From the NCBI GenBank assembly GCA_004298155.1, contig SCRD01000008.1:1-64000 (forward strand): a stretch of 64,000 nucleotides of DNA. The letters run 5' to 3'. Below are positions 4,561 to 35,915 of the stretch, one piece after another (position 1 is the stretch's first letter; every line of letters starts with the position of its first letter). The translations under genes were made by a program, and so were the position numbers. The notes under the pieces are model-generated. The model saw nothing but the letters and a program-made list of their open reading frames with translations, had not been told where the DNA came from and did not search any database. This DNA comes from Acidobacteriota bacterium (lineage in GTDB: Bacteria > Acidobacteriota > Terriglobia > UBA7540).

Positions 4561-4591
4561 TTGACATAGTATGATGAATATCTATACTATG
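4561..4591 (+). promoter_or_regulatory. Sigma70-like promoter with overlapping operator-like dyad, upstream of the TonB arm
   Basis: TTGACA (4561-4566) and TATACT (4583-4588) are separated by 16 bases, close to a consensus housekeeping promoter. An 8-bp inverted repeat, CATAGTAT (4565-4572) and ATACTATG (4584-4591), separated by 11 bases, overlaps both elements, as expected of a repressor operator. The adjacent GntR/FCD gene is the natural candidate regulator (inference). The 13-mer AAAATACTTGACA at 4554-4566 recurs exactly in the opposing promoter at 35910-35922. Confidence 0.7.
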
Positions 4592-5115
4592 CACGATACC
4601 CGTTGATATCGGTCCAAAACATGCTTATTGCAGCGTCCGTTACCCTCGAAGCTCGGTTTAAAGTTTCTGCCATGGATATCCGCAGCGTCGAGCGCTTACT
4701 CTTCAACGACGACTCGCCTGTGGGTTGGCCGGGAGCATCGGGCGACAGTGTCGTATTTGCTGACCATCCGTCTGTCTATAAACCAAAGAGTTCATCCGGG
4801 GTGCTCGTTATCGCGGATCATTTTGGTCAGCTAATCGGAACGAAGGAGCTATCTCACTCAGGTTTGTTAAGTGTTCTAGAAGCAATCATTAAGGTTGGAC
4901 CAGGCGGGGACAAGGCCTTTGGTATCCCCGGGATTTCAGCCGGGGGAACTAGAGGGACCTTTACCTACAGTGATTCCAGGGCTAACGATGGAAGCATTTA
5001 TTCGCTTAGGAGATTTATCTGAAGCTTGCAGCGAGCCCGGCGGGGCGAAGCTGATCCAGGCAAGTTGGGTCTTTGGGCCAATTTCATTTAATTCAGCGGA
5101 TGTCAGGAGGATTTT
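4592..5115 (+). other. Long 5' leader of the TonB receptor mRNA; doubtful ORF inside
   Basis: From the predicted transcription start (about 4595) to the receptor start there are roughly 520 bases. A frame of 139 codons (TTG 4603 or ATG 4621 to 5022) lies in it, but it has no Shine-Dalgarno and resembles no family I know. It may be a non-coding regulatory leader or a decayed gene. Confidence 0.35.
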
Positions 5116-8100
5116 ATGATGAAAGAGCGCATCTTGCGGGTCCGTCTGGCCGCGATTCTGTGCGCGTTATTCCTGATTGGGGCGACTCGTGCCGTCGCGC
5201 AGAACGTAAATACGGGGTCGATTCGTGGTACCGTCACCGACCAGCAGGGCGGTGTGGTGCCCGGGGTTCAGGTAACGATTCTCAACACACTTAAGCAAGT
5301 CAGCCAGCGAACGATGACTGATTCCTCGGGAACTTACAGTGTGCCTTACCTTGCACCGGGGGCATACTCAGTCACGTTTGCTAAGGATGGATTCCAAACG
5401 CTGGTTCGGAATGGAATTCAGCTGAACCTGGATCAGGTGGCTCAAATCGACGGGCAGTTGGCTGTCGGTTCAGCAACCAGCAAGGTCACCGTTACATCGG
5501 CAGCGCCACTACTGGAGACTCAGACCTCGGCTCGAACAACTATGCTCACCAGCGAGACAATTCAGGCCCTTCCGCTCGCTGGCTGGACAGAGTTCAACTT
5601 GGACGTCTTATCACCAGGGCTCTCAACGAGCACCGCACGGTCTGTCGGTATCGATCCGGGGAACTACATCTACGGAGCCACCAGCACCTTCGGCTTCAAC
5701 GGCACACGAAATTTTTCCGGTAACTATGTGCTGGACGGCGGCACGGCAGTTTTCGCGGGTGGCGGCAATCCTGGCTTTTACAAACCACCTCTGGACGCGG
5801 TGCAGGAGTACAACATCAGCGCCAGCACCTTCAGCGCGCGTTATGGAGGCGGGGTTAACGTTATCAATATGGTCACCAAGAGTGGGGCGAACCAGTTTCA
5901 TGGCTCGGCTGCGTATTTCAATAATAATGACGCGCTTGGAGCGCGCAATTTCTTCGCGAAGAAAAGGACGCCCGCCAAATGGAGCGACTGGTCGGGAAGT
6001 ATCGGCGGCCCGATTGTCCGCGACAAGGCTTTCTTCTTCTTCAGCTATGAAGGTGTAAGGGGAGGTAATCCCTCAGCTCGATTTATTACCCTTCCGACGC
6101 CGGCAGAGCTGAACGGAGACTTTTCGGCGCCAGGATTGCCGACGATTTACGATCCGGCCACCACCACGGTTGTGAACGGGCAGGCCGTGCGGCAGCCTTT
6201 TCCGGGGAACAAAATCCCGGCGGACCGGATCGATCCCGTCGCAGCCGCCATTTCGAAGTACTGGCCCGCACCGAACCTTTCCGGCCTGGTTAACAATAAT
6301 TACAGCCTCGGCGGGTTTTCAATCAAAGAGAAGACGTTTGATTCCAAAGTGGATTACTATCCTTCTGCGAAGCACAGGATTACGGGGACCTTCTTCTACT
6401 CCAACGATCCTGAGACCTTCAGTGGGCCGATTCCCGGACCTGCCTGCTATGGGAATTGTGGCTCCATCATCAACCGGGGGCCCCAGGCGACCCTCGGCGA
6501 AACCTGGACTATTAGCCCCAACCTAATTAACGATTTTCGCTTCACCTTTCTCCATGTGTACAATCCCTGGGCAATCCCTAGCCTGGGTCTCGACCTTCCT
6601 ACTAAACTAGGCCTCAAGAATGTTCCCAACTCGGTTTTCCCGAATGTCCTCGTTAGCGGAGCTATTCCAACTCAGATCGACGCAGGGATAAACTTTGTTC
6701 AATCCCAACAAAGTGTTGTACCCTCTGATACCCTCAGCTGGATCAAGGGCCGACACGAGATCAGCATTGGGACTGAGTACGCGAAGCATCAGCTTAACAA
6801 TGCCCAACCGGCTTGGGATTCTGGGACGTTTAATTTTAGCGGGCTCTTTACCCGTAACATGTCCACGCCTGGATCTGGGATTGGCCTCGCGGACTTCCTA
6901 TTAGGCCTACCGGAAGCGTATTCACTTCATGTTGGGCTCCACTCGGGGCAACGGCAATGGTCCTTTGCCCAGTTTATCCAGGACGACTTCAAAGTCACGC
7001 CCAATTTCACTCTAAACTTGGGATTGCGGTATCAGATTGAATCCGGGTGGAGTGAGGTGTTCGATCGTAACTCCAATTTTGATCCTCATCTGAACAACCC
7101 CGCAACGAATACCCCCGGAGCGCTGGTGTTTGCGGATCAGGGCGCGTTCCACGCTCTGCAGAATACCAAATATGCTCTGTTCGCTCCTCGTCTGGGGTTT
7201 GCATGGTCGCCGCGTATGAACTGGGCCGTTCGGGGTGGTTACGGAATCTTCTTTATCCCTGCGTTGGGAGGCCCTTACTCTAACCAGGGCCCTCCAGGTT
7301 ACGATCTTCTCGCGAATCAAATCGTAACCGATCAGGTGACCCCCATTTTTACGCTGTCGCAAGGGCCGGCGCCGTACACGTTTCCGAGCGCGTCAGCTCG
7401 GACCGCCTCCGCTTTGAACGGAAACAGCATTACGTATTACCTTCCTGACAATCCTCAACAATACGTCCAACAGTTCCAGTTGGGCATTCAGCACGAATTG
7501 AAAGGGGGTATTTTGGTTGATATGGCCTACGTTGGCTCCAAGGGAACTCACCTCGGATACAGACGAGACATAAACCAAGTACCACAAAACCTATTGGGAC
7601 CTGGCAACGCCCAATTGCTGCGTCCGTTTCCTCAATATCTAGGAATTAGCAGCTGGCTCAACGATGCGAATTCGATCTATCACTCCCTGCAGCTCAGCGC
7701 GAACAAGAAGTTCTCGCACGGGGTGTCTTTAATAACTAACTACACGTGGTCGAAAGCGATCGATGAGTCTTCATGCGATTACGATTTTGGGGCCGGCTGT
7801 CAAGTACAAATCTCCGCACAACCGGGTTCAAACCGAGGCATCTCCCTTACGGATGTGCCGCAACGGTGGATGGGATCTTTCGTTTATGAACTCCCGGTTG
7901 GGCAAGGGCGGCGTTTCCTGAACCAAGGCGGTGTGGTCAATGCCATCTTGGGTGGTTGGGATACATCCAGCATCATCACCCTTGAATCGGGGGTTCCCAT
8001 TACGGTGACGGTCGGAGGCCCAAACCTGAGCAATTCTCTGGCAGGAAATTGGTATCCCAACCGGCTTGCGAATGGAAATTTGCCCAGCGGCCAAGGAACC

Positions 8101-8403
8101 ATTCAGAGATGGTTTGACACGAGCGCCTTCGTGACCCCATCGCCCTTCACTTTTGGTAACAGTGGAAGGGACATTCTGCGCGGTCCACATTACCGAAACG
8201 TTGACTTTAGTCTCTCGAAAAACTTCATTCTTCCCCTTAAGAGTGAGCGGCCAAAGCTGACCATCCGGGCGGACTTCTTGAACATCTTCAACCACCCCAA
8301 CTTCGGCCTGCCCAACTCTACTCTAGGGTCAAGCGCCTTCGGAACTATTAGAAGCGCACTCATGCCTCGCCAGATCCAATTGGGAGCGCGCATACAATTC
8401 TGA
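5116..8403 (+). CDS. TonB-dependent receptor with carboxypeptidase-regulatory-like N-terminal domain (acidobacterial Oar/Cna-B type)
   Basis: This outer-membrane protein imports oligomeric substrates using TonB energy. The order is: signal peptide (about 1-28, ending AVAQ); carboxypeptidase-regulatory-like beta-sandwich (about 35-115, GSIRGTVTDQQGGVVPGVQV); plug region (about 125-250); and a long beta-barrel ending in the aromatic residue of GARIQF, as expected for BamA-dependent insertion. The length of 1,095 residues is typical of the large acidobacterial family. AGGAGG at 5105-5110 supports ATG 5116 or 5119. It is the first gene of the plus-strand arm behind the promoter at 4561. Its place ahead of exported glycosidase-like enzymes suggests it imports the glycan or glycoconjugate fragments they make or trim. 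A strong hairpin separates it from the next gene and may uncouple expression. Confidence 0.92.
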   Translation: MMKERILRVRLAAILCALFLIGATRAVAQNVNTGSIRGTVTDQQGGVVPGVQVTILNTLKQVSQRTMTDSSGTYSVPYLAPGAYSVTFAKDGFQTLVRNGIQLNLDQVAQIDGQLAVGSATSKVTVTSAAPLLETQTSARTTMLTSETIQALPLAGWTEFNLDVLSPGLSTSTARSVGIDPGNYIYGATSTFGFNGTRNFSGNYVLDGGTAVFAGGGNPGFYKPPLDAVQEYNISASTFSARYGGGVNVINMVTKSGANQFHGSAAYFNNNDALGARNFFAKKRTPAKWSDWSGSIGGPIVRDKAFFFFSYEGVRGGNPSARFITLPTPAELNGDFSAPGLPTIYDPATTTVVNGQAVRQPFPGNKIPADRIDPVAAAISKYWPAPNLSGLVNNNYSLGGFSIKEKTFDSKVDYYPSAKHRITGTFFYSNDPETFSGPIPGPACYGNCGSIINRGPQATLGETWTISPNLINDFRFTFLHVYNPWAIPSLGLDLPTKLGLKNVPNSVFPNVLVSGAIPTQIDAGINFVQSQQSVVPSDTLSWIKGRHEISIGTEYAKHQLNNAQPAWDSGTFNFSGLFTRNMSTPGSGIGLADFLLGLPEAYSLHVGLHSGQRQWSFAQFIQDDFKVTPNFTLNLGLRYQIESGWSEVFDRNSNFDPHLNNPATNTPGALVFADQGAFHALQNTKYALFAPRLGFAWSPRMNWAVRGGYGIFFIPALGGPYSNQGPPGYDLLANQIVTDQVTPIFTLSQGPAPYTFPSASARTASALNGNSITYYLPDNPQQYVQQFQLGIQHELKGGILVDMAYVGSKGTHLGYRRDINQVPQNLLGPGNAQLLRPFPQYLGISSWLNDANSIYHSLQLSANKKFSHGVSLITNYTWSKAIDESSCDYDFGAGCQVQISAQPGSNRGISLTDVPQRWMGSFVYELPVGQGRRFLNQGGVVNAILGGWDTSSIITLESGVPITVTVGGPNLSNSLAGNWYPNRLANGNLPSGQGTIQRWFDTSAFVTPSPFTFGNSGRDILRGPHYRNVDFSLSKNFILPLKSERPKLTIRADFLNIFNHPNFGLPNSTLGSSAFGTIRSALMPRQIQLGARIQF

Positions 8404-8417
8404 TTGGCTTAACGTGC

Positions 8418-8462
8418 GGGCGGACGCGACATGGGGAATGAAATTTCATCCCGGGTCCGCCC
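8418..8462 (+). terminator. Stable hairpin between TonB receptor and TPR gene
   Basis: GGGCGGAC (8418-8425) pairs perfectly with GTCCGCCC (8455-8462), and the enclosed segment contains the palindrome ATGAAATTTCAT. No poly-U follows, so it may be a partial terminator or an mRNA-stability element that keeps receptor mRNA above the downstream operon (inference). Confidence 0.4.
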
Positions 8463-8503
8463 CTATTCGCTCGACAACTGGCAGCAGCAAAACGCATAAC
8501 CAC

Positions 8504-9652
8504 ATGATAAGAGTCCACAGAAGCGGGAACATAATGTTATGCATAGTGTTCCTCGGCGCATACCCTCTACAAGCTGATAGCGGTCAGGAAAGCCAGCTCA
8601 ACACTAAGAGTTCGCGGCAGGCCCAGATCCAAATCCGGCAAGCCGAAAAAGCAGAAAAGAGCGGGAATTGGGATGAAGCTCTAAAAGGTTACATGGAAGC
8701 TCTGAAATTTAAGCCGCGTTCGACGACCCTGGCCGCTAAAATAGGCGCCATTTACTATAACCGCCATGACTATGAGAGGGCGCTTACCTATCTTCAAGAT
8801 GCGCTCAAGATAAGCCCTCGTAACTTTGAAGCCACAAAGTTTGCTGGAATTGCAGCTTATCGCCTGAACAAGTTTGCCGCAGCCGTTCCACTCCTTGAAA
8901 AGGCCGCGCTTTTGCGAGCAAACGATCCAGGAGTTCACTATTGGCTGGGAGTTGCTTACTACGCCCAAGGTAACCCTGGAAAGGCAGTGGATGAACTCCG
9001 CGAATCACTTCGATACAACCAGAAAGACATTGAGACGCTCTACATGCTGGGAAAGATTCAATGGGAGTTGTCCCAGCGGGCGTGGCAAGAAATGCGTGAA
9101 ATCGATCCCGACTCATACCGAGTCCACCAATTGATGGCGGAGTATTACGCGAATAAGGGCAACCTTCCAGAGGCGATTGAACAGTACAAGCTGATTTTAA
9201 AAAAAGCTCCGGACATACCCGGCTTTCGGGCCTCGTTGGGAGATTTATATCTGCGTACGGGCCAGGATCGAGATGCAGAGGAGCAATTCCACGACGAATT
9301 GAAAATTGACGGTCATAGTTTCGTTGCGTATTACGGACTGGCGAAGCTAGCCTTTCAGCAACTTAGGTACCAGGACTCCGTTGAGGACGCCTCATGGGCC
9401 ATCCGGGAAAAGCCTGAGTTTGGCGAGGCCTATTTGTTGCTCGGAAATGTGTACTCACGGATGGGTGAATACCGTCGCGCTGTGGAAGCCCTCGAAAACG
9501 CCGCGCACATCTTGCCTGCTGATCCATCTCCACACTACCTGCTGATGCAGATTTATACGAAGCTTGGGGAAACCGAACTGGCAGACAAGGAGAAAGAGGC
9601 TTTCGAGAGACTCAGCGCGGCAGCGAAATCACAAGGGCCGTCGGTTCATTAA
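8504..9652 (+). CDS. Exported tetratricopeptide-repeat protein
   Basis: The product has an N-terminal signal-like segment (IMLCIVFLGAYPLQA) followed by about eight to ten TPR units, for example ALKGYMEALKFKPRS, ALTYLQDALKISPRN and AIEQYKLILKKAPD, covering residues about 45-375. TPR arrays are protein-interaction scaffolds. In Acidobacteriota, small periplasmic TPR proteins often sit next to TonB receptors and ASPIC proteins, but no catalytic role can be read from the sequence. ATG 8504 was chosen because it places the hydrophobic segment at the N-terminus; the frame is open to GTG 8414, which would add an unlikely leader overlapping the upstream hairpin. It is separated from the receptor gene by about 100 bases and from the permease gene by 75. 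Confidence 0.8.
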   Translation: MIRVHRSGNIMLCIVFLGAYPLQADSGQESQLNTKSSRQAQIQIRQAEKAEKSGNWDEALKGYMEALKFKPRSTTLAAKIGAIYYNRHDYERALTYLQDALKISPRNFEATKFAGIAAYRLNKFAAAVPLLEKAALLRANDPGVHYWLGVAYYAQGNPGKAVDELRESLRYNQKDIETLYMLGKIQWELSQRAWQEMREIDPDSYRVHQLMAEYYANKGNLPEAIEQYKLILKKAPDIPGFRASLGDLYLRTGQDRDAEEQFHDELKIDGHSFVAYYGLAKLAFQQLRYQDSVEDASWAIREKPEFGEAYLLLGNVYSRMGEYRRAVEALENAAHILPADPSPHYLLMQIYTKLGETELADKEKEAFERLSAAAKSQGPSVH

Positions 9653-9727: not shown

Positions 9728-10747
9728 ATGTTTATGGAATTCCTTTTAGGGCCTTCATTGCTACTTGCGGCAGGTTTCTTTCAGGGCAGCTTTATGCTGC
9801 CCATGAAATTCACCCGGCGGTGGGCCTGGGAGAATACCTGGTTGGTTTTTTCCGCCACGGCTTATCTCATCTGGCCCTGGTCGCTAGCGCTCCTGACGGT
9901 GCCGCACCTGGGCCTTGTATTCGGCGCGACCGGCGTCCGGTCTCTCGTTCTGATTGGGCTGTTTGGCGTGGGCTGGGGGTTGGGAGCGTTGACCTTTGGG
10001 TTGGGCGTGGACATGCTGGGCCTCGCTCTCGGTTTCACGGTGATCATTGGGGTGGCGGCGTCCGCAGGCACGCTGATCCCCATGATCGTGCTTTCGCCTG
10101 ACCGACTCTGGGGGCGAGCAGGCTTGCTGATCTCTGTGGCGCTCCTATTGGTCCTGACTGGCGTTGCGATTTGCTCCTGGGCTGGAAAGCTTCGGGACGC
10201 CGGGCGTGACTCGGCGGGGCAAGTTCCGCGCCGCTCCTTCGCAGTCGGATTAATGGTATGCATTGCTTCGGGCTTGCTCTCCGCGTGCGGCAATCTGGGC
10301 TTTGCCTTTGGGAGTGAGGTCATACAGAAAGCCCTCGCCTATGGAGCTTCGGACGTCATGGCAGGAAATTCCTTGTGGGCGCTGATTACCGTCCCGCTGT
10401 TCGTGTGCAACGCGGGATACTGCGGCTGGCTGCTCAAGCGGCGGGGCACCGTCAAGCTCTTCTTTGATCCTCGCACGTGGCGACACTGGTTTCTGGGGTC
10501 GCTGATGGGGGCCTTGTGGATTGCGGGCTTTGCTTGCTACGCGCCTGGGACGCGCCGGCTGGGATCGCTCGGGACTTCTGTTGGTTGGGCGATGATGATG
10601 GCGATGATGATTATTACTGCCAATGTTTGGGGCTACCTCACTGGAGAGTGGAAACAGGCAAGTCTTAGCGCTCGCCGGCTCCTGCTGAGCGGAGTAGGAG
10701 TGCTGATTGTAGCCGTCGGGGTGGCGGGTTTTGCCAATTATAGGTAA
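9728..10747 (+). CDS. RhaT-like sugar permease (DMT superfamily), plus-arm copy
   Basis: This inner-membrane carrier has about ten hydrophobic helices across 339 residues and matches the L-rhamnose-proton symporter (RhaT) family. Hallmarks are GFFQGSFMLPMKFTRRWAWENTW near the N-terminus, the glycine-rich GVGWGLGALTFGLGVDMLG segment, and GTSVGWAMMMAMMIITANVWG near the C-terminus. Known RhaT imports rhamnose or lyxose with a proton; in this context the substrate is more likely the sugar released by the local glycosidases (inference). A paralogue at 33188-34204 keeps the same motifs, so each arm has its own permease. The gene ends 15 bases before the oxidoreductase gene, which suggests cotranscription. 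No clear Shine-Dalgarno precedes ATG 9728 or ATG 9734. Confidence 0.88.
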   Translation: MFMEFLLGPSLLLAAGFFQGSFMLPMKFTRRWAWENTWLVFSATAYLIWPWSLALLTVPHLGLVFGATGVRSLVLIGLFGVGWGLGALTFGLGVDMLGLALGFTVIIGVAASAGTLIPMIVLSPDRLWGRAGLLISVALLLVLTGVAICSWAGKLRDAGRDSAGQVPRRSFAVGLMVCIASGLLSACGNLGFAFGSEVIQKALAYGASDVMAGNSLWALITVPLFVCNAGYCGWLLKRRGTVKLFFDPRTWRHWFLGSLMGALWIAGFACYAPGTRRLGSLGTSVGWAMMMAMMIITANVWGYLTGEWKQASLSARRLLLSGVGVLIVAVGVAGFANYR

Positions 10748-10761: not shown

Positions 10762-11766
10762 ATGGAGAAGCTACGCATAGGTCTCATCGGGTGCGGCGCT
10801 TTCGGGGAAAGCCATCTTGCGACAATGATAGGCATTCCATTCTTGCAGGTGGTAGCAGTTACTGACGTCATTCCGGAGCGGGCCCAAAAACTCGCGGGCC
10901 GATATGGTGTACCCCGCGTCGTGCGAGACTTCCGCGAACTCTGTGCGCTCAGTGATGTGGATGCGGTGAGCGTTGTCACCACTGAGGATCAGCACTTGGA
11001 GCCTGTCCTCTTCGCGCTTGACCAAGGGAAGCATGTGTTCGTCGAGAAACCAATGGCCACGCGCGTCAGTGAGGCCGAGAAAATGATGGAGGCCGCTCAG
11101 AAAGCCGGGCTTCTGCTAATGCCGGGCCATATTCTGCGGTTTGAGACCAAGTACGCGACCGTGAAAGAAATGCTTGCCTCGGGACAGCAAGGTCGCGCTG
11201 TGTTCATTTACGCTCGACGGAACCGCCCGAAAAGAGAAGGCGCCATTTACAACCGCACACCGCTCCCTTTCGAGACCATTATCCACGATATTGATACCAT
11301 GCTCTGGTATACGGAGGCCAAGGTAAAGCGAGTACGCGCCTACGAGCGTCAAGTGGTCGTCAAGAACGGTGCGGACTTGTTCTGCTCTACGCTGGAGTTT
11401 GAGAACGGCGCCCTGGGAATGATTCAAACGATGTGGCTGCTTCCAGACGGCACAGCGGTTCTGGACGATTGCATGCAGGTGGTCACCACCTCGGCGGTCG
11501 CCAATATTGACGTCACGCATTCGGGTCTCACTGTTTGGGGAGAAGAGGGTCAATTATCTCCGGACGTTAGCTACGAACCTCGTTTGCGCGGCGGTGTCTT
11601 TGGGGCTTTACGAGAGGAGCTCAGCTACTTTGCGCTTTGCGTTCTTTCGGGTCGCCAACCCACCGTGGTCACGGCCAAAGATGGGGTGGAAGCAGTCCGC
11701 GTGGCTTCCGCGCTGGTGGAATCGGCCCACTCTGACAAAGAGGTGGAGTTGGCGAGCGGCCTTTAA
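10762..11766 (+). CDS. Gfo/Idh/MocA-family NAD(P)-dependent oxidoreductase, plus-arm copy
   Basis: The N-terminal Rossmann fold (GLIGCGAFGESHL, residues about 5-17) and the family signature VFVEKPMATRVSEAE with its catalytic-region Lys (about residues 92-106) are clear. The C-terminal alpha/beta substrate domain includes HDIDTMLWY. Members oxidise or reduce sugars, inositols and amino-sugar derivatives at a secondary hydroxyl. AAGGAG at 10746-10751 lies about 10 bases before ATG 10762. An out-of-frame ATG at 10755 sits closer and is ignored. It follows the RhaT-like permease directly and precedes a PLP enzyme and a deacylase. A second family member occupies the corresponding place in the opposite arm (28655-29662). 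I infer dehydrogenation of an imported N-acyl-amino sugar or its free form. Confidence 0.88.
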   Translation: MEKLRIGLIGCGAFGESHLATMIGIPFLQVVAVTDVIPERAQKLAGRYGVPRVVRDFRELCALSDVDAVSVVTTEDQHLEPVLFALDQGKHVFVEKPMATRVSEAEKMMEAAQKAGLLLMPGHILRFETKYATVKEMLASGQQGRAVFIYARRNRPKREGAIYNRTPLPFETIIHDIDTMLWYTEAKVKRVRAYERQVVVKNGADLFCSTLEFENGALGMIQTMWLLPDGTAVLDDCMQVVTTSAVANIDVTHSGLTVWGEEGQLSPDVSYEPRLRGGVFGALREELSYFALCVLSGRQPTVVTAKDGVEAVRVASALVESAHSDKEVELASGL

Positions 11767-27431: not shown

Positions 27432-27587
27432 GATTGCCTCCGTTGCTTGAGTCAATGAGAACTAGTAAGAATGAATCTGCCATGCTTATCCCGACGTCTG
27501 CGTTGAATGGTCGGAATATTGTGGAAACTACTTGGTTCCGGCAGCCTCAGAATGTTAATAGGGGCGAAGGTCAAGCGCTGTGCTTGC

Positions 27588-28520: not shown

Positions 28521-28654
28521 TGCAACCTCCGGCCCGACAGCAACCACTGTACTTGGTTAGGTCTCTGATTAGTTCCGGGGGGCAAGCACCCGGCGGAAAA
28601 CCTAAGCCCTTCCAGTCCTAGCAGCTCCTTAGAAGTCGACGGTTCCTCGCATGC

Positions 28655-29662
28655 TTAAACATTGCCCCCTTCCGCCTGAGCTTTGCGATACGCTTCAAAG
28701 ACCAGCTCGATTACTTTGCGGGCCGTGTATCCGTCCGTTTGCGGCCTTTCTCCCGTTTCGACACAATTGAAGAAGTGCTCAATCTCGGGAGTAAAGTCCA
28801 ACCCCTCATCACTCTCGAGCAGGACTTCTTCTGGTTGAGCAACAATGCGCGTCGACCACCGGCATCGGTGACCTTCCTTCGCTAGATTCCCCAGGGGGGT
28901 GGTAGTCAGGGTGATGTACGCCTTTTCACAAACCGCGTTCATGGTGTACCAGATTCGAGGTCTTGGAGAAGCCCAGGTGTGACGAGTTACTCCGATGATT
29001 CCGTTCTTGAACTTGATCACGGAAGCTGCTGTGTCCTCGCCCTCCATCGGAATCCCACCGCGCGTCCCCACCATCGAAGCAGTTTGTACATCTCCTCCGA
29101 TCCAGAGCATGACGTCGAGCATGTGGGGGGATGAAGAAAAGAAGACGCCACCCCCTAGCGTTTCTCGCTTGGAGATCCAGCCAAGGGCATACCCTTGCAG
29201 TGCTTCGTCCATGAGTCCATCAAGCATGAAGAGTTTTCCATAGCGTCCGCTCTCGAGGATCTGCTTGAAGAGTTGCATGCTCTTCCGATAACGGTGAGGA
29301 TACGCCACCATGAGGGTTTTCTTCTGGCGCTCTGCGGCGGCGATCATCTCGTCGGTTTGTTTCAAGCTGGTCGCAATCGGCTTTTCCAGGAAGACGTGGC
29401 AACCAGCCTTGAAACAATCCAAGGTCACGGAGTGGTGAAGGTGATGGGGTAGGAGCACGAATGCACAATCGATTTCCCCGAGTCCCTCACGGTAGTCGGT
29501 CAAGGGGCGCGCTCCTACTTGGTGGCCGATAGCTTCCGCGCGTTCGCGGACGGGGTCGGCAGCCCACACGATTTGCGCTCGGCTCCTAAGATTGGCCAGC
29601 CCGGCCAGGTGAAAAGGCGCCACCCAACCACATCCAATTACGCCGATTTTGTGAACAGCCAT
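28655..29662 (-). CDS. Gfo/Idh/MocA-family oxidoreductase, minus-arm copy
   Basis: The Rossmann motif GVIGCGWVAPFHLAG opens the 335-residue protein and the signature HVFLEKPIATSLKQTDE carries the active-region Lys. The C-terminal substrate domain includes FFSSSPHMLDVMLWIGG, with the His-x-x-Asp arrangement usual in the family. AGGAGGG eight bases upstream fixes the start at ATG 29662. It lies 52 bases after the PLP enzyme and 134 bases before exported copy B. It is only distantly similar to the plus-arm member at 10762, so it may act on another epimer or on the deacylated form. Sugar or amino-sugar dehydrogenation is inferred from family and neighbours. Confidence 0.87.
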   Translation of the reverse strand: MAVHKIGVIGCGWVAPFHLAGLANLRSRAQIVWAADPVRERAEAIGHQVGARPLTDYREGLGEIDCAFVLLPHHLHHSVTLDCFKAGCHVFLEKPIATSLKQTDEMIAAAERQKKTLMVAYPHRYRKSMQLFKQILESGRYGKLFMLDGLMDEALQGYALGWISKRETLGGGVFFSSSPHMLDVMLWIGGDVQTASMVGTRGGIPMEGEDTAASVIKFKNGIIGVTRHTWASPRPRIWYTMNAVCEKAYITLTTTPLGNLAKEGHRCRWSTRIVAQPEEVLLESDEGLDFTPEIEHFFNCVETGERPQTDGYTARKVIELVFEAYRKAQAEGGNV

Positions 29663-29714: not shown

Positions 29715-30749
29715 TCACAGCAGACTTAAGACTTCACGGTGATACGCAAAGAGAGCTGTATTGCCCCCGGTATGAACGAAGATGACATCCTCTTCCGGGG
29801 GGATTTTCTGTTTCTGAAAGTAGTCGAGCAGGCCGGCCATCGCTTTTCCCGTGTAAACGGGATCGAGAAAAACCCCCTCGGTTTGTGCCAGCAGTTTGAT
29901 GGCATCGACAGCCGCGGTGGAAACCTTTGCATAACCGTCGCCTGCATAGTCCGCCAGGTTATGAACGTCATTCGGTTCCAGGCTCGGCTCAATGTCCAGC
30001 AGTTGGGCAACGGCCCGGATGCCAGACCATATGGCTTCTTGAATGGCGTACTCGCCGCCGTTCAGAGGTGAAAAACCCAGCACGTGCCCTTTCCAGCCTA
30101 GTAGCCGGAGGCCAAGGAGCAAGCCCGCCTGGGTGGCGCCCACGGCTGCTGTTGCCACATAACGGGGTACGGAAGGCAAGCCCTGGAACTGGTCAAAGAT
30201 CTCCACCGCCGCACCAACGAAAGAAGCTGTCCCCAGAATTTCGGATTGAGGATACGTAATCAAGTACGGCCTTCGTCCCGCAGCAGCAAGACGCTCCGTC
30301 GCACGCCGTTTTCGCGCTTCTTGCTCAGCACCCAGGGGCTCGTCGATCAGCTCGATCGACACGCCCGCAATGCGGTCGAGAAGGAAATTTCCTTGATCCT
30401 CAGGCTGGTCGTAGGCCCGGCTAAGAACGAGGTGGCAATCCAAGCCCAGCTTCCTTGACGCTGCGGCAAGAGTCCGGCAGTAGTTGGATTGGACTGCTGC
30501 ACCGTGCACAATGACGTCCGCACCTACTGCCAGCGCGTCTCCGAGGAGGAACTCCAACTGTCGAACCTTATTACCTCCAAAGGCCAACCCGCTCAGATCC
30601 TCGCGTTTTGCATAAAAACGACCTTTCCGATTCAGATGCTTCTCGAGCTGCGTCCAGTGATCGAGGGGAGTTGGATAGTACCCCAGCGATACGCGAGGAA
30701 AACGCTCCAAGTGTGACCGTAACTCCTGTGGTGTAAGGACAATACTCAT
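29715..30749 (-). CDS. D-cysteine desulfhydrase / ACC-deaminase-like PLP enzyme (fold type II)
   Basis: The product matches the D-cysteine desulfhydrase/1-aminocyclopropane-1-carboxylate deaminase family: Schiff-base Lys in LAFGGNKVRQLE (about residue 54), AVQSNYCRTLAAA, and VHTGGNTALF near the C-terminus. The phosphate loop reads AAVGATQAGL instead of the usual GSGGTQAG form, a mild deviation. Such enzymes eliminate ammonia, with or without a second leaving group, from D-amino acids. ATG 30749 overlaps the stop of the preceding gene as ATGA, so translation is coupled. Its upstream neighbours are an MBL protein and a D-aminoacylase, making a chain of N-acyl-D-amino compound to free amine to keto product plausible (inference). 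Confidence 0.85.
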   Translation of the reverse strand: MSIVLTPQELRSHLERFPRVSLGYYPTPLDHWTQLEKHLNRKGRFYAKREDLSGLAFGGNKVRQLEFLLGDALAVGADVIVHGAAVQSNYCRTLAAASRKLGLDCHLVLSRAYDQPEDQGNFLLDRIAGVSIELIDEPLGAEQEARKRRATERLAAAGRRPYLITYPQSEILGTASFVGAAVEIFDQFQGLPSVPRYVATAAVGATQAGLLLGLRLLGWKGHVLGFSPLNGGEYAIQEAIWSGIRAVAQLLDIEPSLEPNDVHNLADYAGDGYAKVSTAAVDAIKLLAQTEGVFLDPVYTGKAMAGLLDYFQKQKIPPEEDVIFVHTGGNTALFAYHREVLSLL

Positions 30750-31525
30750 TGAATCAGGCCGTTGAGGAAGCGATCGGAAATGGTTGGATCGTGCCCAGCG
30801 AGTACCACATCGCATTCGCGCTTATAACGCCGGATCACTTCGCGACAGAGCGAAGCGTCCTCGGCGATTCCAACCGGCAAATCTAAATCCACATTCTCTT
30901 TCAAGAACGCAGTTTCGAGGATGCCTACCCGGCCCTGCGCGGTTTCAACGCACACACCAGCCGATCCTGGGTGGTGACCGCCGGTGGTCTCGAAAGTCAA
31001 ACCCGGAACGACTTCCGTGGTCTCATCCACCAAGTGCAGGCGGTTTTCAATGAGAAGCGTCCGCATGAACGTCCAGGTCGCCTCCGTGAAATACAAATCT
31101 CGAGGTGGATGACCGGGGGATTCCAGCAAGAGCTCCGTGACTCCGGCACGGGAGATGTAAACCTGGGCGCGAGGGAAAAATTGCTGCAGTAGTCCCCCCG
31201 AATTATACGTAATGGTCTGAGTGAGCAAAACGAAGTCGATCGACTGCGGTGACAAGCGGTGTTCTTGAAAAAATCTGTCAAGAGTGACGATGTTGGCAAA
31301 AACACATCGCTTGTCGACGATCTGGCACCCTTCGATGAGTCGACGACGCTCAGCTTCGTCCACAGGCAAGCCGGTGTCCACTAACCCCGTGTGCCCATTT
31401 CCTCGTACGATCCAGATATAAAAAGCGAGATTAAGGAATTCGACATCGTGCCGGCCAAAGAAGCACTCCCAACCCGGGACCGGCAAGGTTGCCACGCAGC
31501 GAGCCTGCAATTCGTAAGTTGGCAT
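30746..31525 (-). CDS. MBL-fold (AHL-lactonase-like) protein with degenerate metal site
   Basis: Fold and length (about 259 residues) match the N-acyl-homoserine-lactonase-like branch of metallo-beta-lactamase-fold hydrolases: GLVDTGLP near the N-terminus, TTGGHHPGSAGV, and LAGHDPT near the C-terminus. The central HxHxDH zinc motif is replaced: where relatives read TH-L-H-x-DH-x-GG this protein has TQTITYNSGG, so all four ligands are gone, and the later bridging Asp appears to be Glu. It is either a non-metal protein (binding, scaffolding or regulatory) or a decayed enzyme, though the rest of the frame is intact. GGAG eight bases upstream favours ATG 31525; ATG 31558, overlapping the previous stop, is an alternative. 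It overlaps the next gene by ATGA. Confidence 0.8.
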   Translation of the reverse strand: MPTYELQARCVATLPVPGWECFFGRHDVEFLNLAFYIWIVRGNGHTGLVDTGLPVDEAERRRLIEGCQIVDKRCVFANIVTLDRFFQEHRLSPQSIDFVLLTQTITYNSGGLLQQFFPRAQVYISRAGVTELLLESPGHPPRDLYFTEATWTFMRTLLIENRLHLVDETTEVVPGLTFETTGGHHPGSAGVCVETAQGRVGILETAFLKENVDLDLPVGIAEDASLCREVIRRYKRECDVVLAGHDPTISDRFLNGLIQ

Positions 31526-31550
31526 CGATTTCGCTCCATCCCGAAAAGAG

Positions 31551-33191
31551 TCAAGCATGCCTTCTGAGAACTTGTCCCGCTAAGACTCCGGTGTGCTTCC
31601 CGTATTCGACCACCACTTTCCCGTTCACCAGAACGAATTGAATGCCACGCGGATGATTGCGCGGATTCTCGTACGTGGCGGTATCTTCGACGGACTCCGG
31701 ATTGAAAACGACCAAATCCGCGATCTGACCTTTGCGAACGAACCCCCGATCGTGCAAACCCAGGACGGCTGCAGGCAGCGAGGTCATTTTTTGAATACAT
31801 GCCTCGAGGGTCAGGAGCTTGAGCTCGCGAGTGTAGTGCTGCAAGTAACGCGCAAAAGTACCGTAGGCTCGGGGATGAGGGCGTGAACCAACCAAAAGGC
31901 CATCGGTACCCACCATGTGTGCCGGATGTTTCATGATTGCCTGAACGTTCTTGTCGTACCCGAAGAAAGCAAGGCAGCTAACCTGCAGGTTTTCGTCGAT
32001 AAGCAGCCCACAGGCGAAATCAAAAGCACTTTTCCCTGTCAAGCGTGCAAGCTCCGCCACAGATTTTCCTGCCATCCATTGATTCTTTAAGCTTCCTACA
32101 CCGGCGACGGCAATCTTTTCCCACTCGACGGGAACGTGACTGTACCCGTCACAACCCTCCTCTTCCATTTCCCTCTGGATTCTTTTCCGGTCATTTAGGG
32201 AAGAAATTCTTGCCAGGAACTTGTTCGGCCCTCCTCCATGGACCCAGGAGGGAAAGAAGCCACCCAGGAATGTCGATCCGGCCGTGTAGGGGTAGGAATC
32301 CAAGGTAACTTTGATTCCGGTCGCGGCCGCTTGATCGAGGTGGGCTAAAATTTCCTCTACCCGGTCCTTATTCACTTCGAAGGAGCAATGAAAGTGGGTC
32401 AAATGAAGGGAGACACTGCTTTCACGGGCCACTTGCAAAGCCTCTTCGATCGCCGATGTAAAATGCCCTCCGTAGCTTCTCAAGTGAGGCGCAAAATAAC
32501 CTCCGAAGGGCTCAATTCCCCGGCAGCAGGCCACCAATTCCCTGGTATCAGAAAACGCGCACGGAGCGTAAGTGAGCCCTGTCGAAAAGCCTACGGCGCC
32601 TTCCCGCATTGCCTCGACGACGGCAGCTTGCATGCGTGCAAGCTCGCCATCGGTCGCCAAACGATCCTCTTCACCAAGGACCATTAGTCGAATGGCTGCA
32701 TGGGGCACCAGGTAACAGACGTTAACGGCGACGTTCCCGTCGAACCGGCTCAGGAAGTCCCCCACGCTCGTCCAATCCCAGGAAACACCCTCGGCATCGC
32801 CATTCAACGCCGTCAGACTCTTTCTCAAAGTTGAAAGGGTTACAGCATCGACGGGAGCATAGGAGAGACCATCCTGGCCTAAAACCTCGGTGGTCACTCC
32901 TTGCATTACCTTGCTTTCCTGGCGCGGATTGGCCAACAACGAAATGTCAGAATGGGTGTGCATGTCGATAAATCCCGGGCACACCGCCAGCCCATGTGCA
33001 TCGATAATTTTTGTGGCTTGCTTAATTTTGCAGTCACCGACTTCGCAAATTCTTCCGCCATCTACCACGATGTCGGCGGAAAACGCGGGACCGCCGCTTC
33101 CGTCTACAACTATGCCGTTCTTGATCAGCAGGTCAACCAAGTTTTGCTCCCTCGCCAACATAGAGGCCGGGCCCGATACAACCGGCTTCAT
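31551..33191 (-). CDS. D-aminoacylase / N-acyl-D-amino-acid deacylase (amidohydrolase superfamily)
   Basis: The product cleaves N-acyl groups from D-amino acids or related compounds. Family marks are the small beta-domain (IVVDGSGGPAFSADIVVDGG), the metal-binding DMHTHSD, SLHLTHFHCS with a further His, DSYPYTAGST, and the C-terminal GLHDRGFVRKGQIADLVVFNPE, followed by NPRNHPRGIQFVLVNG. In the Alcaligenes D-aminoacylase a Cys lies in the NCG motif and binds zinc; here the site reads GQDGLSYAP with Asp instead. At 546 residues it has normal family length. The true start is ATG 33191, which overlaps the stop of the permease gene as ATGA; a longer open frame upstream is antisense-type overlap inside the permease. 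It is the minus-arm N-deacylase. Confidence 0.9.
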   Translation of the reverse strand: MKPVVSGPASMLAREQNLVDLLIKNGIVVDGSGGPAFSADIVVDGGRICEVGDCKIKQATKIIDAHGLAVCPGFIDMHTHSDISLLANPRQESKVMQGVTTEVLGQDGLSYAPVDAVTLSTLRKSLTALNGDAEGVSWDWTSVGDFLSRFDGNVAVNVCYLVPHAAIRLMVLGEEDRLATDGELARMQAAVVEAMREGAVGFSTGLTYAPCAFSDTRELVACCRGIEPFGGYFAPHLRSYGGHFTSAIEEALQVARESSVSLHLTHFHCSFEVNKDRVEEILAHLDQAAATGIKVTLDSYPYTAGSTFLGGFFPSWVHGGGPNKFLARISSLNDRKRIQREMEEEGCDGYSHVPVEWEKIAVAGVGSLKNQWMAGKSVAELARLTGKSAFDFACGLLIDENLQVSCLAFFGYDKNVQAIMKHPAHMVGTDGLLVGSRPHPRAYGTFARYLQHYTRELKLLTLEACIQKMTSLPAAVLGLHDRGFVRKGQIADLVVFNPESVEDTATYENPRNHPRGIQFVLVNGKVVVEYGKHTGVLAGQVLRRHA

Positions 33192-34204
33192 GCTTTTGTG
33201 CTGGCGAAGCCGAGAATAACCACAGCTACAACAAGTATCCCCAAGCCCCAGGCCATTGTTCCGACTGCTCTTCTCCCCGCTCCACGCCATTCTCCAGTCG
33301 CAACTCCCCAGAGATTTGAGACGACAATGCACAAGGACATAAGGATCGGCCACCCCACCGACGGCCCCAGGCGGCCAATCCGGTTGGCGCCCACTCCGTA
33401 TGCCACCAAACTCCCAACCCAGAGCAGCCCCATTGCAAGGGCCCCACCCAGATAAAGTGGTGTTTCGTGCCGGCCGTACCTTTGCCAACTCCGCTTGGTC
33501 ACCAGGAGATACACACAATAAATGGCGTTGGCTAGGAAGCCAGCACTCATGATGATCAGCCACAGGACGTTTGGCGCATCTGTTGCGGTGGCGCCGAGCG
33601 CTTCGGCACGCCGGGTGATCTCGGCCCCATACGCAAACCCCAAATTCATGAAACACGAAAGGATTCCGCTTGCAACACAGATTGCCAATCCAAAGACAAA
33701 CCCGTGTCGGGGCTCGCTTGGGGTGGCGTGAGCGCCTGCTTTCCGTTCGCGCTCTCGGCCTGCCAACGAGCAGACAACCACACCCGCCAGCATGGCCAAC
33801 ACGCCACACCAGAGCAGAACGTTGTAATTAAGGCTTTTGGCAGGCGCACTGAACCAAGGGATGAGCGAGCCCAGTCCGCCCGTCAGACCCAGGATAATGC
33901 TGTAGCCAAGCCCCATTCCAAGCGCCTTGATTCCCAATCCAAAACACACCGAGCCGCAGCCCCAACCTAGACCGAAAAGCGTGGTGAGAAACAGGATACG
34001 GGGTGGAGAGCTCGCCAAGACCAACTCGAAGCGCGGAACGGTCAGCAGAACGAGCGCAAAGGGCAGAATGATGAAACCCAGAAGGCAGAACACCAGCCAC
34101 GTGTTTTCCCACTCCCACTTGGATGTATACTTCATGGGAAACATGAAGCTACCCTGCATCAGGCCCGCCGAAAAAACTAGGATGAGTGCCGAACGGCTCA
34201 GCAT
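33188..34204 (-). CDS. RhaT-like sugar permease (DMT superfamily), minus-arm copy
   Basis: This 338-residue inner-membrane protein has about ten hydrophobic helices and the same landmarks as the plus-arm permease: GLMQGSFMFPMKYTSKWEWENTW, FGLGWGCGSVCFGLGIKALG, and GPSVGWPILMSLCIVVSNLWG. AGGAGAG lies about ten bases upstream of ATG 34204. Its stop overlaps the D-aminoacylase start, so importer and deacylase are translationally coupled, which is the strongest hint in the window that the imported compound is the N-acylated substrate (inference). The two permeases are clearly paralogous but far from identical, so the duplication is old or the copies were acquired separately. Confidence 0.88.
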   Translation of the reverse strand: MLSRSALILVFSAGLMQGSFMFPMKYTSKWEWENTWLVFCLLGFIILPFALVLLTVPRFELVLASSPPRILFLTTLFGLGWGCGSVCFGLGIKALGMGLGYSIILGLTGGLGSLIPWFSAPAKSLNYNVLLWCGVLAMLAGVVVCSLAGRERERKAGAHATPSEPRHGFVFGLAICVASGILSCFMNLGFAYGAEITRRAEALGATATDAPNVLWLIIMSAGFLANAIYCVYLLVTKRSWQRYGRHETPLYLGGALAMGLLWVGSLVAYGVGANRIGRLGPSVGWPILMSLCIVVSNLWGVATGEWRGAGRRAVGTMAWGLGILVVAVVILGFASTKA

Positions 34205-34583: not shown

Positions 34584-35478
34584 TCAAGGCTTCTCTCGCC
34601 CGCAGAAGGGTTGGAGAGCTTTGTAGTAGAGTTGTGCCACAGTCTGAGGATTTCCATTCTGATACTGTGCTCCGAACAGTTCCGTACTCAGGTTGCCGGT
34701 GTAACCAATGCGGCTCAGCGCGGCCGTGACCTTCCTGAGTGGAATCACGCCCTGGCTTGGCGGAATGCGGTCCCGACCAACAAGAATTTCCCGTGGGATC
34801 GCCTTCGGAACGTCGTGGAAGTGCACGTGTTCAATCTCTCCCGGATGGATGTTGATCGAGGTCCTCGAACTTACTGACCGCCACAAAGAAATGAAATGTG
34901 TCCAAACAAATGCCGGTGTTGGGCTGCCGGGCCTCACGCAGCACCCGGAGCGATGTAACGAGCGATCCGATAAGCGCCGAACGGGCGATAAACTCAAATG
35001 CGATTCCCACATGGTAGCGCGCCGCAAGTTCCGCCAGCTTCACAAACCGCCCTGTGGCGACCTTGTAGTCATCCTGCTCTATCTTGTCGCCGATGGAGGA
35101 AAACACAATGTAACGGGGAATATCGAGCGCCTGACACATCTCAAATTCCTGTTGGAGATGGGACTCGATATCTCCCTGCTGCCGGCCCAGGCTGTCTCCT
35201 GAGGCGCAGGCGGAAACGGGTGTCAGGCCGTGTTGTCGCAACAGGCTTGCCACCCGCGACGGTTCCCAGCTTTGATTCCGCGGCTTGGCAAACCAAAGCT
35301 CAATGTGCTTGAGCCCCGCGGCGGAATAAGCCCCGCAATCGTTTTCGAACGGCGCATTGAGCGTGGTGGACTCGTTCAGGCAAGGCGAAAAGTTCCCGGA
35401 CGATTCTGCTGCGGCTCCGTCCGCGAGCGCCAAGGCCCATGCCGTTACCGTCTGCGCGAGAGAATGGCGTCGGTGCAT
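34584..35478 (-). pseudogene. Sugar phosphate isomerase/epimerase (AP-endonuclease-2-like TIM barrel), frameshifted
   Basis: Two minus-strand frames encode consecutive parts of one xylose-isomerase-like TIM-barrel protein. The first (35478 or 35529 down to 34831) runs through GLKHIELWFAKPRN, PRYIVFSSIGDKIEQ, GIAFEFIARSAL and TGICLDTFHFFVAVSKFEDL. The second frame (ending 34584) resumes with NIHPGEIEHVHFHDVPKAIP and ends GRDRIPPSQGVIPLRKV, LSTELFG. The join lies at about 34845-34855 and needs a one-base change. The N-terminus from ATG 35478 has a Tat-like HRRHSL start, which is common for such proteins in this phylum. The intact family isomerises or epimerises keto sugars or processes 3-keto glycosides. 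The protein may be lost, or the break may be a sequencing error. Confidence 0.75.
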
Positions 35479-35504
35479 GATTACCAGCCCCAGATCACGA
35501 ACAG

Positions 35505-35858
35505 CTAAGACTTCGCGCTTGTACAACACGGGAAAGAAGTCGAATAGGTGTTGCCTTGATATAGCAAGTCGCCGTGAATGCCTATCTCTGACGTGTAGTA
35601 TCCGTTGATGGTCATTGTCTTGAGTTCACCAAAGAAGCGTTCGAGATCCGTCTTCGGATCATCTTCATGAGCGGCAGATTTGGCAAGAGCTACGTCGAGC
35701 GAGGTGTGAGCCGACTCCTCGCGAATCGGTTGGAGTCCATTCTTCCATTGTTCCTTCATCTCGCTGCCGCTCGTCCCTACTATCCGATCAGCAAAAAGAC
35801 TCACTTGCGCCGCATAGGCGCCGGGTGAGTGCTTATCGGCAGGGGTGACCATTTCCAT
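35505..35858 (-). CDS. Gluconate 2-dehydrogenase subunit-3-like protein, N-terminally short
   Basis: The 117-residue product matches the C-terminal two thirds of gluconate 2-dehydrogenase subunit 3 (gamma) proteins: TPADKHSPGAYAAQVSLFAD, then FFGELKTMTINGYYTSEIG and LLYQGNTYSTSFPCC, where relatives have a similar GYYTS...GNT...FPGC tail. The usual Tat signal and first helices are missing, since the family motif IIPADEHSPGA lies immediately at the start codon. The full-length protein would escort a membrane GMC-type sugar dehydrogenase, but no such partner is present here. ATG 35858 (or 35852) lies about 20 bases behind a predicted transcription start, so the leader consists of the 20-base palindrome at 35859-35878. 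It is the first gene of the minus arm. Confidence 0.6.
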   Translation of the reverse strand: MEMVTPADKHSPGAYAAQVSLFADRIVGTSGSEMKEQWKNGLQPIREESAHTSLDVALAKSAAHEDDPKTDLERFFGELKTMTINGYYTSEIGIHGDLLYQGNTYSTSFPCCTSAKS

Positions 35859-35878
35859 TTATCCCAAGAATGGGATAA
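35859..35878. promoter_or_regulatory. Perfect 8-4-8 palindrome in the leader of the minus arm
   Basis: TTATCCCA, spacer AGAA, TGGGATAA: an exact inverted repeat directly between the predicted start of transcription (about 35880) and the start codon at 35858. Its position at +1 to +20 is typical of a repressor operator; as RNA it would also form a hairpin blocking the start codon. Which factor binds is unknown. Confidence 0.65.
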
Positions 35879-35886
35879 CGTGCTAC

Positions 35887-35915
35887 AACATACGGATTCT
35901 CTGTGTGTTTGTCAA
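35887..35915 (-). promoter_or_regulatory. Sigma70-like promoter of the minus arm
   Basis: On the minus strand TTGACA (35915-35910) and TATGTT (35892-35887) are separated by exactly 17 bases. The 13-mer AAAATACTTGACA (35922-35910) is identical to the one at 4554-4566 in front of the plus arm. Further upstream lies an AT-rich tract with ATAGTA-like half sites. Between here and the transposase remnant at 36413 no gene is seen. Confidence 0.7.

Follow-up and report, generated by a model that had tools for sequence, protein, structure and literature searches.

A pair of convergent operons in an Acidobacteriota genome that may encode a variant of the oxidative amino-sugar route

The NagA/NagB pathway releases acetate and ammonia from N-acetylglucosamine (GlcNAc) by way of phosphorylated intermediates. 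A different solution is the ong pathway of Pseudoalteromonas, in which OngB, a protein of D-aminoacylase fold, deacetylates the GlcNAc aldonate, and OngC, a fold-III pyridoxal phosphate (PLP) enzyme, deaminates the product to 2-keto-3-deoxygluconate (KDG) (PMC9537276, PMC12017989). A haloarchaeal GlcNAc route, in Natrarchaeobius, is predicted only; it places deacetylation (CE14) ahead of oxidation by a glucose dehydrogenase and assumes a kinase step (PMC12343721). Together with an Aeromonas chitin study (PMC11653859), these were the only relevant works found in open-licence texts on oxidative GlcNAc use with a sugar dehydrogenase, or on such gene kits in Acidobacteria, which is weak evidence of absence. 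Here we analyzed the first 64,000 nucleotides of contig SCRD01000008.1 (hereafter the window) from an Acidobacteriota bacterium (Terriglobia; UBA7540; assembly GCA_004298155.1, 5.2 Mb in 29 contigs). The window holds an island of two facing gene sets, a real and sensible operon pair that by the best reading would encode a novel version of oxidative amino-sugar degradation.

As shown by Pfam and NCBIfam scans (Table 1), the two convergent arms drawn by the initial annotation are in place with their named families, a plus arm at 5116-21518 on the plus strand and a minus arm at 35858-21848 on the minus strand. Both contain a RhaT-like permease, a Gfo/Idh/MocA dehydrogenase, an N-deacylase, a fold-II PLP enzyme (PF00291 in both) and exported glycosidase-like proteins, the export-signal-like N termini being judged by eye. 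The plus arm runs from an outer-membrane protein and a tetratricopeptide-repeat (TPR) protein to a permease (RhaT1), a dehydrogenase (Gfo1), a threonine-dehydratase-like PLP enzyme, an M20 deacylase, two exported proteins (the second termed EXP900), a KduD-like short-chain dehydrogenase (SDR) and a medium-chain dehydrogenase (MDR). In the minus arm, a second permease (RhaT2) is followed by a deacylase of the D-aminoacylase family (DAA), a metallo-beta-lactamase (MBL)-fold protein, a D-cysteine-desulfhydrase-like PLP enzyme, a second dehydrogenase (Gfo2), and GH20 and GH89 genes interleaved with two paralogous exported proteins. The MBL-fold gene, between deacylase and lyase, was missing from the initial gene list. 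The core of this arm is tightly packed, with overlaps of 8 bases between DAA and MBL and of 4 bases between MBL and PLP genes, the permease and Gfo2 nearby, and GH20 and GH89 on the same strand. From RhaT2 through GH89, all nine reading frames are uninterrupted.

Judging from these families and their context, we give somewhat better than even chances to the proposal that the enzymes of each arm degrade an N-acetyl amino sugar oxidatively and without phosphorylating it. The putatively exported glycosidases would free the sugar, through GH20 and GH89 in the minus arm, which point to a sugar of GlcNAc type, and through proteins with GH20b-type domains in the plus arm. The RhaT-like permease would import it and the Gfo/Idh/MocA enzyme would oxidize it, presumably at C1, to a lactone that may open spontaneously or through a lactonase, the minus-arm candidate being the MBL-fold protein. 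The N-deacylase would strip acetate from the 2-acetamido aldonate, by then an N-acyl alpha-amino acid, and the PLP lyase would eliminate ammonia from the 2-amino-3-hydroxy acid to yield a 2-keto-3-deoxy aldonate. For GlcNAc the product would be KDG, plausibly finished by a PfkB-family kinase and a KDPG-aldolase-family protein (PF01081) encoded side by side in contig 11 (C11:32122-33063 and C11:33290-33868); no PfkB was detected among the island proteins scanned, and none of the genome-wide PfkB matches lies inside the window. ArgE/DapE-type M20, threonine-dehydratase-like and D-cysteine-desulfhydrase-like enzymes use alpha-amino acids as substrates. Oxidation at C1 would turn an N-acetyl amino sugar into the N-acyl alpha-amino acid form that these deacylases bind, and a 2-amino-2-deoxy aldonate, being a beta-hydroxy alpha-amino acid, would present the substrate form of these lyases. 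A lactone intermediate would also fit the lactonase-family neighbours (PTE, SMP30, MBL) described below.

This sequence of uptake, oxidation at a sugar carbon, N-deacylation and ammonia elimination to a keto-deoxy acid had been put forward in the initial annotation and now has partial support from gene neighbourhoods in other phyla and from the repeated plus-arm kit. Its remark that no such system had been described went too far, since the ong reports provide a precedent in the same deacetylation and deamination of the GlcNAc aldonate (PMC9537276, PMC12017989). In both systems GH20, a deacetylase of D-aminoacylase fold and a PLP deaminase come together, and a 2-acetamido aldonate would be turned into KDG and ammonia with no phosphorylated amino sugar on the way. 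In the ong pathway, however, the aldonate comes from extracellular attack on chitin by a lytic polysaccharide monooxygenase (LPMO), whereas an intracellular Gfo dehydrogenase would make it here; OngC is of fold III, whereas the island PLP enzymes are of fold II; a GlcNAc1A transporter of the SSS family is replaced by two RhaT-like permeases; OngB has a Cys metal ligand where DAA has Asp; and the KdgK kinase of the ong cluster has no counterpart in the island, which adds GH89 and a further arm where M20 is paired with a threonine-dehydratase-like lyase. By these features the island is not a member of the ong family. The predicted Natrarchaeobius route likewise oxidizes GlcNAc without prior phosphorylation toward glucosaminate and an Entner-Doudoroff route, but with deacetylation before oxidation (PMC12343721). 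The DgaE system also eliminates ammonia from a 2-amino-2-deoxy gluconate by means of PLP, but its named substrate is phosphorylated and no DgaE-like gene was seen in the island.

The neighbourhoods of DAA relatives were studied in other genomes (loci numbered with L). The Cys/His/His metal site with catalytic Asp of D-aminoacylases (subtype V amidohydrolases) is altered in the window protein, which has Asp for Cys and keeps the remainder; among 111 other distinct loci aligned, this position is Asp in 64 and Cys in 41. A midpoint-rooted FastTree tree places the window protein in a group of 16 sequences (support 0.82) and, inside it, in one of 12 (0.98), mostly together with sequences from Chloroflexota and Actinobacteriota. 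The named set comprised the best 80 of 559 confirmed relatives, found by two peptide patterns taken from the window protein and L042, so that it leans to the clade of the window. We compared the D/H group, of window type (Asp for Cys, His for Lys), with the classical C/K group, counting neighbours within 8 kb in loci of unequal length, treated as if unrelated, and again only in loci with full 8 kb flanks; L042 was left out as a duplicate of L088, and the queries for PTE, fold-III PLP, SMP30, ATP-binding cassette (ABC), DgaE-like and Aminotran_5 genes came from loci in the set, self-matches included. Gfo genes were found in 7/23 D/H and 0/38 C/K loci (Fisher P 0.0006; the window queries alone give the same count), and with full flanks in 6/18 and 0/20 (P 0.007). 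A similar pattern was detected for ABC permeases (7/23 and 0/38; full flanks 7/18 and 0/20) and for fold-III PLP enzymes (5/23 and 0/38; full flanks 4/18 and 0/20, P 0.04). One of three PLP families was present near 9 of the 15 clade relatives, 5 of these 9 being query self-matches, and in 3/96 other loci.

In the Anaerolineae locus L089 the order is ABC, Gfo, PTE, a fold-III PLP enzyme (Ala_racemase_N with D-ser_dehydrat), a Gfo gene 58% identical to Gfo2, and the adjoining DAA relative (46%). L086 shows DAA, PTE, a hydrolase, two Gfo genes, Aminotran_5 and ABC, and the Anaerolineales loci L087 and L090 share ABC, Gfo, DAA, a protein of the SMP30/gluconolactonase family, M20 and Gfo, L090 having in addition an MDR gene and, at 10 kb downstream, an Aminotran_5 gene. 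In L082, ABC, DAA and a fold-III PLP gene (Ala_racemase_N/D-ser_dehydrat) stand together. In L104 (Occultella), DAA is followed by NAGLU (1e-121), sugar ABC, Gfo and, about 10 kb downstream, a DgaE-like gene; L114, also from Occultella, has GH89, permease and Gfo matches and no DgaE match. In two Chloroflexota loci a DgaE-like gene lies directly upstream of DAA (L092:8791-9984, with an SBP_bac_5 ABC system also nearby, and L093:8787-10001), with 272 bits to TIGR01437 (cut-off 385). No match to queries of the three PLP families was obtained in L083, L084, L085, L087, L088 and L114; the neighbours in L085 include a further amidohydrolase, a methyltransferase and Band_7 proteins, and those in L083 a GntR regulator and an HpcH/HpaI aldolase. 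These gene contexts support the proposed chemistry as an association, not as an activity.

Two further instances of the plus-arm kit lie in the same genome, and other Acidobacteriota have it in shuffled and incomplete form. EXP900 matches were present in 28 of the 200 genomes searched, its own included, and of 20 loci fetched, four carry RhaT1, Gfo1, M20 or PLP kit genes. Two of them, on contigs 15 and 20 of the window's genome (L174 and L176), contain EXP900, Gfo1 (43-45%), an MBL gene with intact motif, M20 (47-49%), Aminotran_5 and RhaT1 (48-51%), the MBL and Aminotran_5 proteins being 85% and 80% identical between the two loci. L188 has EXP900, Gfo1, M20, Aminotran_5 and RhaT1, and L177 encodes the lyase (62%), Gfo1 (64%), RhaT1 (57%), EXP900 (62%), the outer-membrane protein and a GntR regulator (58%), with no M20 match. 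Kit genes were also found in 5 of 17 further M20 loci (L201, L202, L204, L207, L214). M20 and EXP900 co-occurred in 15 genomes, with 27 and 17 positive genomes among 199 (own excluded) from 8 genera, counts that are confounded by ancestry. These loci together support that the kit is real and repeated, with its genes shuffled and its PLP partner exchanged, and since kits of similar make-up recur, the composition of the arms is more than chance. The GntR/FCD protein encoded divergently from the plus arm is its likely regulator; relatives adjoin plus-arm relatives in L177 and, with 35-40% identity, in L201, L207 and L214.

Regarding the glycosidases, the minus-arm GH20 protein matches both PF00728 and PF02838 and shows the D-E pair at residues 332-333, and the GH89 protein has its catalytic and C-terminal domains above the Pfam cut-offs, a domain-level match only. 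In the plus arm, the family profile of EXP900 matches the GH20 lacto-N-biosidase 4h04 at 1.5e-5 in the GH20b region; Glyco_hydro_20b was detected in 7/17 family members (E up to 1, best 9.4e-6) and GH67 weakly in 3/17, and the window EXP900 itself matches neither. As the AlphaFold2 model of this 900-residue protein was too poor for a fold search (mean predicted local distance difference test score, pLDDT, 43), the link to GH20 comes from profile searches. The other exported protein of the plus arm (767 residues) is a distant paralogue of EXP900 (24% identity, 2e-39); PDB searches with it and with the 315-residue protein at 24303-25250 yielded nothing useful. The latter and its 76% identical partner flank the GH20 gene; neither has a Pfam match, and 24303-25250 has no NCBIfam or PDB match.

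D-glucosaminate has the 2R configuration at C2, and D-mannosaminate and L-fucosaminate have 2S. The minus arm, with a deacylase of the D-aminoacylase family and a D-amino-acid-type lyase, would fit D-glucosaminate, and the plus arm, with an ArgE/DapE-type M20 enzyme and a threonine-dehydratase-like lyase, a 2S amino sugar such as N-acetylmannosamine or a 6-deoxy-L-amino sugar. The suggestion that the arms are sorted by D/L form or by epimer may thus be entertained as a hypothesis consistent with the pairing of families. The pairing is not clean: threonine-dehydratase-like matches lie near DAA relatives outside the D/H group in L046, L050, L105 and L147, and Aminotran_5 genes accompany both types of deacylase. 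More tentatively, and with less confidence than in the route itself, the island could be a matched pair, one arm for a 2R (GlcNAc) and one for a 2S sugar, within a modular, stereochemically sorted class of amino-sugar pathways across Acidobacteriota, Chloroflexota and Actinobacteriota. Its modules would be a permease or ABC system, Gfo, a lactonase (MBL, PTE or SMP30), an N-deacylase (GxDG-clade amidohydrolase or M20) and a PLP ammonia-lyase from at least five families (threonine-dehydratase-like, D-cysteine-desulfhydrase-like, D-serine-dehydratase-like, DgaE-like and Aminotran_5). No oxidative route for 2S amino sugars was found in the open-licence literature searched.

A number of observations weigh against an oxidative amino-sugar route, beginning with the deacylase, which in phmmer scores higher with the D-aminoacylase AfDam (296 bits) than with PpOngB (212 bits). 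With OngB positions transferred through the AfDam alignment and the published numbering (Gln298 left unmapped), Cys97 corresponds to Asp94, Glu226 to Tyr227, Ser292 to Thr294, and Lys254, the alpha-carboxylate anchor of OngB, to His255; the catalytic Asp417, the metal ligands His223 and His253, Tyr287 and Arg428 are retained. Judged by these scores and residues, the window deacylase is not OngB. Near DAA genes, neither M20 (2/23 D/H, 2/38 C/K) nor GH89 (2/23 and 1/38) is specific for the clade, and the minus-arm PLP type was absent within 8 kb of all 111 other loci. None of the PTE, fold-III PLP and DgaE-like neighbours reaches an NCBIfam equivalog cut-off among the matches listed, and the top NCBIfam score of the L089 PLP enzyme is with the BhcC aldolase. 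Of the EXP900 loci, the remaining 16/20 lack RhaT1, Gfo1, M20 and both PLP types, with at most outer-membrane protein, MDR or weak Gfo matches, and 12/17 of the further M20 loci, some on short contigs, lack RhaT1, Gfo1 and PLP genes. Finally, the absence of NagA and NagB noted in the initial annotation is true of the island (none among the proteins scanned, and no genome-wide match inside the window), but NagA (329.5 bits, above the cut-off) and a Glucosamine_iso protein of the NagB family (230 bits) are encoded elsewhere in the genome, so that the organism need not use the island for GlcNAc.

The arms could instead degrade N-acyl amino acids or cell-wall peptides, the M20 enzyme and the D-aminoacylase acting on N-acyl-L- and N-acyl-D-amino acids and the lyases deaminating hydroxy-amino acids, next to unrelated glycosidase and Gfo genes. 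The top scores of DAA are indeed with true D-aminoacylases, with which it shares the Thr at the OngB Ser292 position, and the lyases resemble threonine dehydratase and D-cysteine desulfhydrase (for the minus-arm enzyme, the nearest solved structure is the D-cysteine desulfhydrase 7ysk, 5e-60, and the top NCBIfam match D-cysteate sulfo-lyase, 276.6 bits, cut-off 450). We consider this alternative unlikely, given that Gfo and RhaT-like genes turn up again in the repeated kits and that sugar ABC transporters, Gfo, NAGLU and lactonase families accompany window-clade deacylases, Gfo and ABC permeases being missing from all 38 classical C/K loci.

Less likely still is that the Gfo enzymes oxidize C3 of an intact glycoside or sugar, as in a 3-keto-glycoside route, with the deacylases and lyases acting later on other intermediates. 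For it speak the nearest solved relatives of Gfo2, 3q2i/3q2k and DgpA, which we take to be C3 oxidizers, and the top NCBIfam match of both dehydrogenases, NF040723 (UDP-GlcNAc 3-dehydrogenase), far under its cut-off. The nearest solved relatives of Gfo1 are inositol-type dehydrogenases, which, like those of Gfo2, weigh against the proposed C1 oxidation. A broken AP_endonuc_2 gene at the end of the minus arm would also suit such a route. Against this, D-aminoacylases and OngB bind the alpha-carboxylate beside the N-acyl group (PMC9537276, PMC12017989), so that oxidation at C1 would be needed, though the window DAA keeps only part of the anchors; furthermore, lactonase-family genes stand beside Gfo and DAA in L086, L087, L089 and L090, while in L174 and L176 Gfo1 has a neighbouring MBL gene whose motif is intact. 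The intact MBL protein of L174 for its part matches B3 metallo-beta-lactamase models under cut-off and no lactonase model, which argues against a lactonase.

The integrity of the minus arm is a further point of doubt about the amino-sugar route. The interval 35858-21848 given initially as one arm holds open genes from RhaT2 to GH89 and a decayed outer end (34584-35858), where the split of the xylose-isomerase-like gene (34584-35529) may alternatively be an assembly error. The HxHxDH metal motif of AiiA-type lactonases is missing from the window MBL, with TQTITYN in its place; it is also missing in 19/30 aligned relatives, in a set that leaves out L001, L009 and L040 (the window itself), and the loss is therefore not confined to this protein. 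As to synteny in relatives, the plus-arm kit recurs in the form described, but the full minus arm was found in no other locus examined, and no Gfo2 match at 1e-60 was detected in the other 296 of 297 Acidobacteriota (up to 7 candidates scored per genome). The Gfo2 search and the neighbourhoods lead us to reject vertical conservation of the minus arm for the Acidobacteriota searched. Next to the nearest acidobacterial deacylase (L042, taken as the same place as L088) there is an Aminotran_3 gene, with a weak Gfo match 7-8 kb off and no further kit gene among the queries used; eight loci with minus-arm PLP relatives (L062-L069) have no DAA or RhaT match, and other window-type matches in four of them (L063 GntR; L065 MBL, GntR and SDR; L067 SDR; L069 Gfo1). 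The least likely alternative, that the minus arm was put together recently from horizontally acquired pieces next to a transposase and is partly decayed and in part non-working, would account for the broken gene and gene piece near the DDE transposase, for the motif-less MBL, for the lack of Gfo2 matches in the other Acidobacteriota searched and for a nearest Gfo2 in Anaerolineae, but fits poorly with nine open genes around a tightly packed core and with a motif loss that is not local.

Motif-less MBL-fold proteins, with TPLQAYA or similar for HxHxDH, occur in many genomes of the family and class of the window, and by their sequences are a non-canonical MBL group; an SDR match lies close to the gene in 13/19 loci (L010-L028). 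The window MBL was rejected as an orthologue of these genes (24-33% identity, different neighbours). Between the arms, an inverted repeat (GGTTGCGTGCA...TGCACGCAACC, followed by CGTTTTC) matches the single terminator expected in the initial annotation; it is strong, but has no T-run for the minus direction, and the terminator scan made no call there, so that its use by both arms is plausible. A short frame at about 21735-21780 reads VARVLHVSRQSVSCW (translated by eye), which may be a remnant of an IS630-type helix-turn-helix. Both permeases score under the equivalog cut-off of the RhaT L-rhamnose/proton symporter. Nothing in the window matched Rfam at the gathering threshold, and no tRNA gene was detected. 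Downstream of the island, a polysaccharide biosynthesis protein and a glycosyltransferase are encoded at 42403-45153.

Table 1. Features of the island and its borders in the window.
Feature	Coordinates	Strand	Evidence
GntR/FCD regulator, divergent from plus arm	3342..4427	-	PF00392 + PF07729
Outer-membrane beta-barrel, TonB-receptor-like (OMP_b-brl_4)	5116..8403	+	PF25183 3e-240
TPR-repeat protein	8414..9652	+	profile scan
RhaT-like permease 1 (RhaT1)	9728..10747	+	PF06379 2e-24; NCBIfam RhaT 243.6 bits, cut-off 369
Gfo/Idh/MocA dehydrogenase 1 (Gfo1)	10762..11766	+	PF01408 3.5e-29
Fold-II PLP lyase, threonine-dehydratase-like	11854..12837	+	PF00291 2e-82; under every NCBIfam cut-off among 25 matches listed
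M20 N-deacylase, ArgE/DapE type	13158..14321	+	PF01546 2e-35; TIGR01910 250 bits, above cut-off 217.6
Predicted exported protein, twin-arginine-like N terminus (by eye), 767 residues	14389..16692	+	no Pfam match
Predicted exported glycosidase-like protein of 900 residues (EXP900), GH20b-type-domain family	16921..19623	+	family profile
SDR dehydrogenase, KduD-like	19717..20475	+	NF005390 329.6 bits, cut-off 369
Zinc-type MDR dehydrogenase (first ATG of open reading frame 20364-21518)	20499..21518	+	PF08240 4.5e-30
Terminator-like inverted repeat between arms	21606..21634	.	sequence inspection
Predicted exported GH89 (NAGLU, alpha-N-acetylglucosaminidase-like)	21848..24250	-	PF05089 1e-53 (183 bits); NAGLU_C PF12972 9e-25 (88 bits)
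Predicted exported protein, no Pfam family	24303..25250	-	76% identity to 27588-28547
GH20 beta-N-acetylhexosaminidase-like	25266..27455	-	PF02838 3e-22, PF00728 2e-15; GCDE motif
Tandem paralogue of 24303-25250	27588..28547	-	sequence comparison
Gfo/Idh/MocA dehydrogenase 2 (Gfo2)	28655..29662	-	PF01408 5e-27
Fold-II PLP lyase, D-cysteine-desulfhydrase/ACC-deaminase-like	29715..30749	-	PF00291 8e-41
MBL-fold protein, AiiA-lactonase-like, first metal motif replaced	30746..31558	-	phmmer to AiiA 3e-6
D-aminoacylase-family N-deacylase (DAA, Amidohydro_3), GxDG clade	31551..33161	-	phmmer to AfDam 1m7j 3.5e-87, PpOngB 9kb1 1.9e-61
RhaT-like permease 2 (RhaT2)	33188..34204	-	NCBIfam RhaT 249.6 bits, cut-off 369
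Xylose-isomerase-like gene (PF01261, AP_endonuc_2), broken over two frames	34584..35529	-	PF01261 profile 5-165 in one frame, 177-234 in other
Gluconate_2-dh3 piece	35505..35858	-	PF13618
DDE transposase beyond minus-arm outer end	36440-37321		profile scan

In soil, amino sugars hold a large stock of carbon and nitrogen. If the proposed route is true, some of the genes currently annotated as D-aminoacylase, threonine dehydratase, cysteine desulfurase or Gfo/Idh oxidoreductase would encode amino-sugar enzymes, and the handedness of deacylase and lyase would predict, as a rule, the C2 configuration of the sugar. The GxDG amidohydrolase clade, with His for Lys, is a defined group for study. The island would represent a new arrangement of a recently discovered route for chitin sugars, without initial phosphate addition, in which the oxidative use of GlcNAc would be independent of LPMO.

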